Source of the DNA: an uncultured Lachnospiraceae bacterium
Lineage (GTDB): Bacteria > Bacillota > Clostridia > Lachnospirales > Lachnospiraceae
Direction of reading: 5' to 3'
NCBI GenBank assembly: GCA_944383545.1
Contig: CALWPY010000001.1
Location: 105,980-169,979, forward strand
DNA length: 64,000 bases
A program made the translations under genes and the position numbers. The notes under the pieces are model-generated. The model did not search any database and was not told the DNA's origin. It was given only the letters and a program-made list of their open reading frames with translations. Every line of letters begins with the position of its first letter. The first letter of the stretch is position 1. Below, piece by piece: positions 33,110 to 37,357 of the stretch.

Positions 33110-33343
33110 TTATGCCTCTTCCTTTGTTGCTTTAGCTTCTTTACTTGCTAAATATTCATTTATATCACTGATTACATTTTCAACATCCATGCCGTGTACT
33201 CCGCAGGCTTCCTCAAGAGATTCCATCTGTGATGCAGGGCAGCCTACACAGTGCATGCCGGATGCCATAAGAATGGCTGCATTACCTGGGTCGATTTCAA
33301 TAATTTCATGAATGAGCATGTCCTTAGTTACTGTTTTACTCAT
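33110..33343 (-). CDS. DUF1858 domain protein
   Basis: Small protein of 77 residues that is almost entirely a DUF1858 domain (DMLIHEIIEIDPGNAAILMASGMHCVGCPAS). The GMHCVGCP signature with two conserved cysteines is typical of these disulfide/iron-sulfur associated modules; function is not established. It is co-directional with tkt, 25 bases upstream of its start, so probably one transcript. GGAGG precedes the start. Confidence 0.85.
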   Translation of the reverse strand: MSKTVTKDMLIHEIIEIDPGNAAILMASGMHCVGCPASQMESLEEACGVHGMDVENVISDINEYLASKEAKATKEEA

Positions 33344-33846: not shown

Positions 33847-35901
33847 ATGTTCAAAATGGAAGCAGCAGGATGGGATGGCTTCGTAGGCGGAAAGTGGCAG
33901 AAGACAATCGACGTTAGAGATTTCATTCAGAGAAATTACACAGTATATGAAGGAGATGATGAGTTCTTAGCTGAGCCTACACAGGACACAAAGGACTTAT
34001 GGCAGATGGTACTTGACCTTTCAAAGAAGGAAAGAGAAGCAGGCGGAGTACTTGATATGGATACAAAGGTTGTATCAACACTTACTTCACACGGCCCTGG
34101 ATATCTTGATAAGAGCAAGGAAAAAATCGTTGGTGTTCAGACAGATAAGCCATTCAAGAGAGGAATGAACGTATACGGTGGAATCCGTATGGCAGTTAAG
34201 GCTTGCGAGGACAATGGTTACACAGTTGACCCTGAAATAGTAGAGTTCTTTACAACTCATAGAAAAACACACAACGCAGGTGTATTTGATGTTTACGACC
34301 AGGAAATCAGAAAGTGCCGTACAAACCACATCATCACAGGTCTTCCTGATGCTTACGGACGTGGACGTATCATTGGTGACTACAGAAGAGTTGCACTTTA
34401 CGGAATTGATTACCTTATCCAGGATAAGAAAGAGCAGAAGGAATCTTTCGGTAATGTTTACACAGATGATGTAATCAGAGGAAAAGAGGAAATCGCAGAG
34501 CAGATTAAGGCTCTTGGCGAACTCAAGCAGATGGCTGCATCATATGGTATCGATATTTCAAAGCCTGCCACAAACGTGCAGGAAGCTATACAGGCACTGT
34601 ATTTCGGATACTTAGGAGCAGTTAAAGAGCAGAACGGTGCAGCAATGTCACTCGGACGTACCTCTACATTCTTAGACTGCTACGCAGAAAGAGATTTAAA
34701 GGCTGGTAAATTTACAGAAGAGCAGATTCAGGAGTTCGTAGACCACTTCATTATGAAGCTTCGTATCGTTAAGTTCGCAAGAACACCTGAATACAACTCA
34801 TTATTCTCAGGTGACCCTGTATGGGTAACTGAATCACTTGGTGGTATGGGTGTTGACGGACGTCCACTTGTTACAAAGATGAGCTTCCGTTATCTTCATA
34901 CACTTGACAACTTAGGAACAGCACCAGAGCCAAACTTAACAGTTCTCTGGTCAACAAGACTTCCTATCAACTGGAAGCAGTACTGTGCTAAGATGTCAAT
35001 TAAGTCATCATCAATCCAGTATGAGAATGATGACCTTATGAGACCTGTTCACGGTGATGACTATGCAATCGCATGCTGCGTATCATCAATGAGAGTCGGT
35101 AAGGAAATGCAGTTCTTCGGAGCAAGAGCAAACCTTGCAAAATGTCTCCTTTACGCTATCAATGGTGGTGTTGATGAGTGCACAGGCGTACAGGTTGGTC
35201 CTAAGTACAGACCTATTACTTCAGAGTACCTTGACTTTGACGAAGTAATGGAGAAGTTTGATGACATGATGGAGTGGCTTGCAGGCGTATATGTAAGCGC
35301 ACTTAACATTATTCATTACATGCATGATAAGTATGCATATGAAAGAATTCAGATGGCTCTGCATGACAGAGACGTAAAGAGATATTTTGCAACAGGTATA
35401 GCAGGACTTTCAGTTGTTGCTGACTCACTTTCAGCTATCAAGTATGCAAAGGTTAAGCCTATCAGAAATGAGCAGGGCATTGTAGTAAGCTACGAGACAG
35501 AGGGAGACTTCCCTAAGTATGGAAATAACGATGACCGTGTAGATGAGCTTGCAGCTAATCTTGTATCAACCTTCATGGCTAAGATTAGAAAGCATCATGT
35601 ATACAGAAACGGATTCCCTACAATGTCAGTACTTACAATTACTTCAAACGTAGTTTACGGAAAGAACACAGGAGATACTCCTTGCGGAAGAAAGCATGGT
35701 GAGCCTCTTGCACCTGGTGCTAACCCAATGCACAGAAGAGATACTCACGGAGCACTTGCTTCACTTTCTTCAGTAGCAAAGCTTCCATTCATGGATTCAC
35801 AGGATGGTATTTCAAATACATTCTCAATCATTCCTGGAGCTCTTGGTAAGGAAGATCAGGTATTTGCAGGTGACCTTGACGTAGACCTTAAGCTTGACTA
35901 A
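33847..35901 (+). CDS. pflB: Pyruvate formate-lyase catalytic core lacking the glycyl-radical segment
   Basis: Converts pyruvate and CoA to acetyl-CoA and formate. The ATG at 33847 is chosen because AGGAGGAG at 33831-33838 nearly abuts an in-frame TTG at 33841. The 684-residue protein aligns with the E. coli PflB order: [15 protein letters not shown], the active Cys pair in AIACCVSSM (Cys410-Cys411), then [10 protein letters not shown] and VASL-like [13 protein letters not shown]. It ends at [17 protein letters not shown], just where family members continue into about 75 more residues holding the radical Gly. No remnant of that segment follows the stop in any frame; it is encoded separately at 36171. 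The codons (TAC, AAC, CGT enriched) suggest high expression. Confidence 0.92.
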
Positions 35902-35918
35902 TTAAAGGATTGGTTAAA

Positions 35919-36131
35919 ATGAGTGATAACCTTAAAAATGTAGATGATATCGTAGCAATGCTGGATGGCATGGTTGCTGACGGGCACGGACACATAAATG
36001 TGTCCGTAGACCCGGAGCAGGAAGGAAAAACAGTTCAGACAATGGGCTGTATAGACTGCGCAAAAGGAAATCTTGCATGTGCGGTACCTACACTGCACGA
36101 AGGCATTGACGATGCTTTTGACGATGAGTAA
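35919..36131 (+). CDS. Small Cys-containing relative of the glycyl-radical subunit
   Basis: Protein of 70 residues I do not recognise as a named family. Its first 30 residues (NVDDIVAMLDGM, GHGHINVSV) mirror the start of the radical subunit at 36171 ([19 protein letters not shown]). After that, where the other protein carries its RVSGYAV loop, this one has GCIDCAKGNLAC, i.e. Cys44, Cys47 and Cys54 in CX2CX6C, and an acidic tail DDAFDDE. The ATG at 35919 (with AAAGGA at 35904-35909) lies 17 bases after the pflB stop. It might bind the PFL core in place of the radical domain, or hold a metal or redox centre; both are inference. Confidence 0.8.
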   Translation: MSDNLKNVDDIVAMLDGMVADGHGHINVSVDPEQEGKTVQTMGCIDCAKGNLACAVPTLHEGIDDAFDDE

Positions 36132-36170
36132 TAAATATTATATTATTAAGAAATAGGAGGATGATTTAAA

Positions 36171-36410
36171 ATGGCTAGTAAACAGCAGATTGATAACTTA
36201 GTTGGAATGTTAGATGGTTACGCAGAAAAAGGCGGACATCACATCAATGTAAATGTATATAATAGAGAAACTCTTATCGATGCACAGAAGCATCCTGAGA
36301 ACTATCCTCAGCTTACAATTCGTGTATCAGGATATGCAGTTAACTTCATAAAGCTTACACCTGAGCAGCAGAATGATGTTATTTCACGTACATTCCATGA
36401 GTCCATCTAA
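36171..36410 (+). CDS. grcA: Stand-alone glycyl-radical subunit of pyruvate formate-lyase (GrcA-like)
   Basis: Protein of 79 residues equal to the C-terminal segment of normal PflB. It carries [35 protein letters not shown] and the radical motif RVSGYAV with the radical Gly at residue 54 (codon 36330-36332), ending RTFHESI like E. coli PflB. In E. coli the similar GrcA (YfiD) replaces an oxygen-damaged radical domain. Here the core lacks its own, so this subunit should be obligatory. AGGAGGATG precedes the ATG. It lies between the Cys-containing relative and the activase gene. Confidence 0.93.
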
Positions 36411-36489
36411 TTTAGGATTAATGCGTCAGGCTGTATGACATCATACAAATGAAATACTAATCAATATATTGGAGGACAATATACTGATA

Positions 36490-36533
36490 AAGTGCTTGGG
36501 ACCATGTGCTTTATGTGCATGGTCCCTGCTTTA
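36490..36533 (+). terminator. Strong hairpin between the radical subunit and pflA
   Basis: GGGACCATG (36498-36506) pairs with CATGGTCCC (36518-36526), extended by outer AAAGTGC-like pairing with TGCTTT. The following bases are TTTAAAATAA, a poor T-run, so it may be a partial terminator or an RNA-stability element that lowers pflA relative to the abundant core mRNA. Confidence 0.6.
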
Positions 36534-36559
36534 AAATAACGCGAAATGGAGTTTTGACC

Positions 36560-37357
36560 ATGGAAAATCAATTAGGAGAAAACCCTCAGATGGAGGGAAA
36601 TATTCATTCTATTGAAACCTTCGGTACTGTTGACGGACCCGGAGTCAGATATGTGGTATTCGTAAAAGGCTGTCCTATGAGATGTCTTTACTGCCACAAC
36701 CCGGACACCTGGGCGGCGGCAGGCGGCGAAAAGATGACGGTGGAGCAGATTCTTACGGATTATGACAGATATAAGCCATTCCTTAGGGACGGCGGACTGA
36801 CTGTTACAGGTGGAGAGCCTCTGGTACAGTTGGATTTTGTACTTGAGCTTTTTACAGAGGCACAGAAGAAGGATATCCATACATGCCTTGACACTTCGGG
36901 AATAATGTTTAGAAGAGACAATCCGGAGCTTCTTGAAAAATACAGGAAGCTGGCAGAGGTAACGAATGTGGTAATGCTCGACATAAAGCACATCGACCCT
37001 GAAGAGCATAAGAAGCTAACCGGCCAGCCTATAGACAATATTCTGGATTTCCTGCATTTCCTAGATGAGCAGGAAGTGGAAATCTGGATAAGACATGTCA
37101 TTGTTCCGGGAATTACTTATATACCTGAATATCTTGAGAGACTTGGCAAATACCTTGCCCACTTTAAACATGTAAGGGCGCTTGATGTACTTCCATACCA
37201 TGATATGGGAAAGGAAAAGTACAAGAAGATGGGCATCGATTATCCTCTCAAGGATGTTCAGCCTCTGACCAACAAGGAGGCCAAGGAAGCAAGAGACATT
37301 ATTCTGGGAGCAATGAAAAAAGAGCGTCAGGAAATGAAGGAGCATGGAGAACTGTAA
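36560..37357 (+). CDS. pflA: Pyruvate formate-lyase activating enzyme (radical SAM)
   Basis: Generates the glycyl radical with SAM and a [4Fe-4S] cluster. The 265-residue protein has VDGPGVRYVVFVKGCPMRC with the cluster cysteines Cys38, Cys42 and Cys45 (CX3CX2C), followed by TGGEPL and the DIKHIDPEEHK region typical of activases. The ATG at 36560 (TGGAG at 36547-36551) is chosen over an ATG at 36506, which lies inside the hairpin. It must act on the separate 79-residue radical subunit, presumably when docked on the core. Confidence 0.94.
   Translation: MENQLGENPQMEGNIHSIETFGTVDGPGVRYVVFVKGCPMRCLYCHNPDTWAAAGGEKMTVEQILTDYDRYKPFLRDGGLTVTGGEPLVQLDFVLELFTEAQKKDIHTCLDTSGIMFRRDNPELLEKYRKLAEVTNVVMLDIKHIDPEEHKKLTGQPIDNILDFLHFLDEQEVEIWIRHVIVPGITYIPEYLERLGKYLAHFKHVRALDVLPYHDMGKEKYKKMGIDYPLKDVQPLTNKEAKEARDIILGAMKKERQEMKEHGEL

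Follow-up and report, generated by a model that had tools for sequence, protein, structure and literature searches.

In many anaerobes pyruvate formate-lyase (PFL) is one of the main sources of acetyl-CoA and formate, and the Lachnospiraceae-type family is known from gut and rumen. The stretch of DNA analysed here, referred to as the window, comprises 64,000 nucleotides from an uncultured Lachnospiraceae bacterium and contains a gene for a PFL core that lacks a glycyl radical loop, followed by a gene for a small protein that carries such a loop. The question raised by this locus is whether the two genes encode one enzyme made in two pieces, or an incomplete enzyme accompanied by a spare part, and what the third small gene lying between them may contribute.

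A PFL core and a separate radical subunit

The genes of the locus and the hairpin found in its transcript are presented in Table 1. The start of PflA was placed at ATG 36560 as the most likely choice; the longest frame opens with GTG at 36506.

Table 1. Features of the split PFL locus, in positions of the window
Feature	Position	Strand	Remarks
PFL core, 684 aa	33847..35901	+	ATG 33847, stop 35899-35901; Cys410-Cys411; no glycyl loop
Mini-protein, 70 aa	35919..36131	+	N-terminal helix and strand resembling the radical subunit, then Cys44-Cys47-Cys54 motif CIDCAKGNLACAVPTLHEGID
Glycyl radical subunit, 79 aa	36171..36410	+	Gly54 in RVSGYAV; NCBIfam NF038360 GrcA3
12-bp mRNA hairpin between radical subunit and pflA	36498..36526	+	folding compared with shuffles
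PflA, PFL-activating enzyme, radical SAM	36560..37357	+	CPMRCLYC; TIGR02493, 282 bits (cut-off 231.75)

Residues 9-673 of the core match positions 2-666 of the 744 positions of the PFL model TIGR01255 with 1095.4 bits (cut-off 994.2), and the 79-residue subunit matches positions 664-744 with 98 bits. The two pieces tile the model with an overlap of three positions, and therefore both together correspond to one PFL. The core stops where the family continues into the radical segment, as the original prediction stated, and the reading frames, lengths and key residues that it gave for the core and the small protein are confirmed. The core has both the score and the adjacent catalytic cysteines of a TIGR01255 member; the glycyl radical domain, which in this family belongs to the same chain, is supplied by the separate 79-residue protein. 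Cys410 and Cys411 are retained in all 105 split cores examined. The subunit passes the cut-off of the NCBIfam family NF038360 (GrcA3; 162.2 bits against 158) and falls below that of TIGR04365 (GrcA; 98.8 bits against 170), of which it matches positions 66-126 only.

It is important to consider the rest of the genome, whose completeness is rated at 99.87%. A search of it with PF02901 gave no further PFL-like core, and PF01228 and PF02901 together gave no PFL that carries a radical domain itself. The second complete pfl gene that would count against the original prediction did not appear in these searches. The only other glycyl radical domain found with PF01228 belongs to NrdD, the anaerobic ribonucleotide reductase. 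A protein of the GrcA/YfiD type has a full-length PFL in the same cell to rescue, and here the single PFL-like core has no radical domain. Judged from the sequences, the split into core and radical subunit is real, and the subunit is very probably an obligate part of the enzyme and not a GrcA-type spare. The claim of a normal subunit as opposed to a repair part is thus well supported, with no full-length PFL found in the genome.

The 81-nucleotide stretch around the hairpin (36480-36560) folds with a z-value of -4.45, and none of 200 shuffles is equally stable. The hairpin is absent from the list of terminators for the window. It is a possible attenuator or mRNA-stability element, which would perhaps hold the level of PflA under that of the enzyme. 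The operon is preceded on the minus strand (33110-33343) by a gene for a 77-residue protein with a DUF1858 or hybrid-cluster-protein-associated redox disulfide domain, and pflA is followed by a gene for a zinc-dependent phospholipase C-like protein (PF00882, 37508-38212).

Distribution of the split and of the cysteine module

The nearest loci, the best 80 of 572 relatives in a contig scan and mostly labelled Lachnospiraceae, were compared with the window. The radical motif is absent from the core in all 80, and a downstream subunit is present in 79, the remaining contig ending first. The search for radical-less cores with an adjacent subunit gene, proposed with the original prediction, thus gave the expected result. 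These loci include isolate genomes, for example Eubacterium ruminantium ATCC 17233 (L025). A wider set of 155 split loci shows the same arrangement, with the subunit gene following the core in 154 and the contig ending first in the remaining one. This set consists of the window, L005-L084, L097-L156 and L177-L190; since 80 of its members are the window's nearest relatives, it is weighted towards near kin. Full-length loci (L157-L161, L165), loci of other enzyme families (L191-L193) and a contig fragment of a full-length PFL (L194) were left out of the count.

The family was sampled with one genome for each of 250 genera. Of these genomes 102 have a close match (E<=1e-42) to the subunit, as a separate protein in 96 and fused within frames of 748-789 residues in six. 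At the level of the class (391 genomes), at least 23 genomes have a separate subunit, at least 17 of them outside the family. At the level of the phylum (398 genomes), PFL-type separate subunits occur, among the matches listed, solely in two family members; the short frames in G657 and G824 may be contig-edge fragments, which is confirmed for G657 (L194). A second separate subunit is listed in 15 of the 250 family genomes. No PFL core was found beside the second copy in any of the 14 cases fetched (L197-L208, L215, L216), as searched by motif and tblastn in flanks of 3.4-5.8 kb. These copies look as spares for an exchangeable subunit would be expected to look.

Separate radical subunits of 82-110 residues with the motif RVAGY were also observed in other glycyl radical enzyme families (L191 from G761, L192 from G828 and L193 from G869). 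In L191 and L193 a radical-less core (775 and 752 residues, respectively) lies directly upstream and an activase downstream; therefore splitting is not confined to PFL.

The open reading frame of the mini-protein begins 17 nucleotides past the core stop and has an RBS-like AAAGGA. Homology of its N-terminal part to the radical subunit is shown by BLASTP (E=1e-6, 12 of 25 residues identical) and by profile-profile comparison (E=1e-7 over 30 columns), and the second half has CIDCAKGNLACAVPTLHEGID in place of the glycyl loop. The observation behind the original prediction therefore stands for the core, the cysteine pair, the 79-residue protein and Gly54, and fails in the assertion that nothing of the radical segment is left in any frame past the core stop. 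Its interpretation is upheld in part: the intact two-gene PFL with a normal subunit is well supported, but a third, cysteine-bearing component was overlooked.

The mini-protein is a maintained protein family and not debris: dN/dS does not exceed 0.104 in the 16 pairs, out of 18, for which dS could be computed. In three of these 16 dS is above 1.5, where the estimate is imprecise. In the alignment of 55 of the 78 members then in hand, Asp16, Gly24, His25, Cys47, Ala53, Cys54, Pro57, Leu59 and Gly62 are invariant and Cys44 is nearly so. None of the 55 members has a match in Pfam, and in NCBIfam weak matches to GrcA3 alone were obtained, for 17 of them. A profile search of the PDB with the mini-protein gave no credible match and no solved relative. 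For the cysteine module as such, no record of a family, structure or paper was found in Pfam, NCBIfam, the PDB or the open-access literature. The mini-protein model matches 82 of the 250 family genomes at E<=1e-3, 63 of these below 1e-9; the 19 weaker matches are mostly cross-hits to the N-terminal stretch shared with the subunit and with full-length PFL. One match in G398 contains an internal TGA, and selenocysteine was considered and rejected, the match having overrun the real stop.

In many genera without a mini-protein the same kind of motif is carried by the tail of the core, as in ..DIDRIEECGNQACNIPNIMESIDNE of L105 and ..DCSNGACSTPTLFEGLD of L183. By a profile-based count of the 155 split loci, the module is located on the mini-protein in 112 and on the core tail in 38; it is never found in both places and is found in neither in five. 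The two locations are thus mutually exclusive in this set. Core tails have either no cysteine (117) or at least two (38), and never one; 27 of the 38 have just two. Each of the 112 mini-protein frames has at least two cysteines, with at least three in 92 and two in 20; these were counted from stop to stop, so that some may precede the start codon. The docking half shared with the radical subunit is absent where the cysteine motif is joined to the core.

The module is present in 137 of 138 loci of the family and nearest-80 set, and in 13 of 17 outside the family. The loci without it are L030, L184, L185, L187 and L189, four of the five outside the Lachnospiraceae-type family; therefore the module is not indispensable, and it is less general outside the family. 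The last 14 split loci were picked solely for a separate subunit and served as a test, which gave nine tails, one mini-protein and four with neither. It is important to note that some loci come from one organism or from very close ones: the cores are identical within L044/L156 and within L061/L068, L051 and L055 belong to a single isolate, and L066/L149 are nearly identical. Locus counts are therefore not counts of independent events.

Several variants of the small proteins were also observed. The mini-proteins of L103 and L107 stop just past the CxxC (GCTDCAK and GCTTCSQ, respectively) and are without the AC.VPTL end. Small proteins that weakly match the N-terminal half of the mini-protein model in L209-L214 end in other motifs, YHHGRCDVGSPWA or ECCNMYGRPA..GLLDMYTD, and no PFL core was found near them in the fetched flanks.

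Evolution of the split

At full-length PFL loci neither a downstream subunit nor a mini-protein was found (0 of 22; 18 of these have at least 1 kb of downstream sequence, and L165, L169, L195 and L196 have less than 400 bases). A tree of 73 rows places two lineages of full-length proteins within the split clade, one with L166, L168, L169 and L171 and the other with L170. A tree that keeps all split rows in one group is rejected by the AU test on a set of 49 rows without L189 (p=0.0021, or p=0.0025 with L170 included among them); the groups were named after the first tree had been seen, so these values are optimistic. L170 has a radical domain with 91% identity to a separate subunit, compared with 84% to the nearest fused one. 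Identity to the nearest separate subunit is 78-87% for the domains of L166, L168, L169 and L171, and 64-83% for the other full-length domains. The comparison is therefore clear for L170 and only suggestive for the other four.

The two nested full-length lineages suggest re-fusion of the core and subunit genes, which would argue for joint action of the two products. When full-length outgroups are included, the tree would be most simply explained by a single split and two re-fusions. The split protein L189, whose long branch falls outside the main split clade, may represent a further, independent split. In L170 the linker between the core and the radical domain is TCGCEEVTC, the only linker with cysteines among the 22 full-length loci; the linkers of L166, L168, L169 and L171 contain none.

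The location of the module has changed repeatedly, with at least 12 changes between mini-protein and tail states among 57 rows of the 73-row tree, of which well-supported branches force four (for the tail) to seven (for the mini-protein). In L061 and L068 a recent deletion fused the end of the mini-protein to the core. These two loci are neighbours on the tree of L079, which has a mini-protein, and a comparison of their tail DNA by eye shows three silent differences.

Possible mechanism and comparison with known systems

The enzyme is proposed to work as a core with a separately made, exchangeable glycyl radical subunit. The 79-residue subunit would dock through its N-terminal helix and strand at the site that the C-terminal domain occupies in one-piece PFL, and would thereby set Gly54 beside Cys410/411; the adjacent PflA would activate it. 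This docking would follow that proposed for YfiD on the E. coli PFL, and docking, activation by PflA and exchange after oxygen damage are all inferred from homology. Oxygen destroys PFL by cleavage of the backbone at the radical glycine, according to excerpts of PMC8683613, and after such a cut the small subunit alone would need to be replaced. The cheap swap of oxygen-damaged subunits, put forward in the original prediction, would fit the second subunit copies without a nearby PFL core in all 14 fetched cases. It would also fit the behaviour of truncated E. coli PFL, which with YfiD is competent once activated, as stated in the same excerpts.

The two-cysteine module, located on the mini-protein here and on the core tail elsewhere, would serve the core while the subunit is absent or being exchanged. 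The mini-protein could use the docking half of the subunit to fill the vacated slot, bringing its cysteines near the catalytic pair, and might act as a placeholder or redox guard of that site, or as a docking handle. The main reason for reading the docking half as a tether is its absence when the motif is tied to the core. That this enzyme is an obligate split PFL with the cysteine module as a functional component is held with good confidence, which does not extend to the guard mechanism alone. The role of a redox guard or lock of the open site between subunits is favoured tentatively. The complete reading, in which a split PFL is built for subunit exchange, the module both occupies and redox-protects the open catalytic site, and the mini-protein evolved from, or with, the radical subunit, is a little more doubtful still. 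Besides the five split loci without the module, some further points count against the proposed explanation. If the mini-protein and the subunit used one slot they would compete, and tail-bearing forms need not; L170 has the cysteine linker despite its fused radical domain; and in L097 the mini-protein gene is located downstream of the subunit gene.

The module may instead be a docking handle or recruitment element, which helps the radical subunit or PflA to find and hold the core and replaces the residues preceding the radical glycine, on which YfiD binding by E. coli PFL depends. According to the excerpts of PMC8683613, residues 696-733 of E. coli PFL are needed for measurable binding of YfiD and for efficient activation. 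In those excerpts PFL 1-695 with YfiD is as active as the wild type once activated, but it is poorly activated, with 32-fold less radical than a longer cleaved form with YfiD. The segment matching 696-733 is missing from the split cores, and in 150 of the 155 loci the module is found on the core C-terminus or a neighbouring gene. The artificial split PFL has an assembly problem that its natural counterparts have presumably overcome, and the module would be an obvious candidate. The handle, however, leaves unexplained both the conserved cysteine pair and the five split loci that lack the module, and on the whole this role is rather unlikely.

It is less probable again that the module binds a metal or an Fe-S cluster and tunes activation, like the accessory subunits of some glycyl radical enzymes. 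Some accessory subunits of X-succinate synthases bind Fe-S clusters. The presence of such accessory subunits in X-succinate synthases, as given in excerpts of the literature, agrees with this role, as do Cys44, Cys47 and Cys54 of the window's mini-protein and the three or more cysteines of most mini-protein frames (92 of 112). However, two cysteines alone are general, and this weakens the Fe-S reading: the 20 mini-protein frames and 27 tails with only two have too few for the usual cluster unless protomers share one, and the PDB profile search gave no credible match.

That the 79-residue protein is a GrcA-type spare and that another enzyme supplies the PFL activity is very improbable. Its NCBIfam name, autonomous glycyl radical cofactor GrcA3, and the second copies away from any PFL core in relatives (14 of 14 fetched) would agree with a spare, but the genome searches gave no PFL with an in-chain radical domain, the subunit gene accompanies the core in 154 of the 155 split loci, and the protein matches only residues 68-127 of YfiD and is without its disordered residues 1-60. 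An assembly error or frameshift, already denied in the original prediction, can be practically dismissed with the same split core in 80 of 80 nearest loci, isolates among them, and an intact third gene in between.

If the exchange and redox-protection reading is true, this PFL would combine a separate radical cartridge with a separate safety cap. A natural PFL with a replaceable radical subunit, in 96 of 250 sampled genera, would make the survival of oxygen pulses by anaerobes directly testable. The recurring cysteine module is a concrete component whose role is within reach of a few mutants.

The split itself is not unknown to databases, since the family GrcA3 is named in NCBIfam and two PFL cores are deposited in the PDB as "Formate acetyltransferase" (38la_A, 687 residues, and 38lb_A, 739 residues). 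The radical subunit query matches neither chain; therefore radical-less PFL cores have already been solved, either as natural cores or as truncated constructs. The structure 38la stops at the position that aligns with the natural C-terminus of the split core L189, and 38lb has a further tail that begins with GECDMC. No separate radical subunit chain of the window's type was listed in the PDB search. No paper on a split PFL or on GrcA3 was found in the open-access literature, a scope that leaves out most subscription journals and preprints, and the available portions of PMC11528403 and PMC12288474 describe no split PFL.

Among the closest known systems is the one-piece PFL (PflB, TIGR01255), which is alike in the core sequence, the catalytic cysteine pair, the RVSGYAV loop and the adjacent PflA. 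However, in the window the radical domain has its own gene, and a cysteine module is added. E. coli GrcA/YfiD (TIGR04365, PDB 6owr) is likewise a stand-alone homologue of the PFL C-terminus with the radical glycine. The subunit described here differs from it in being only 79 residues long, without the disordered N-terminal half, and in having a partner core without a radical loop of its own, with no full-length PFL found in the genome to rescue. The subunit also passes the cut-off of NCBIfam GrcA3; this name implies a cofactor or spare, whereas here the protein is the sole radical source found for the sole PFL core.
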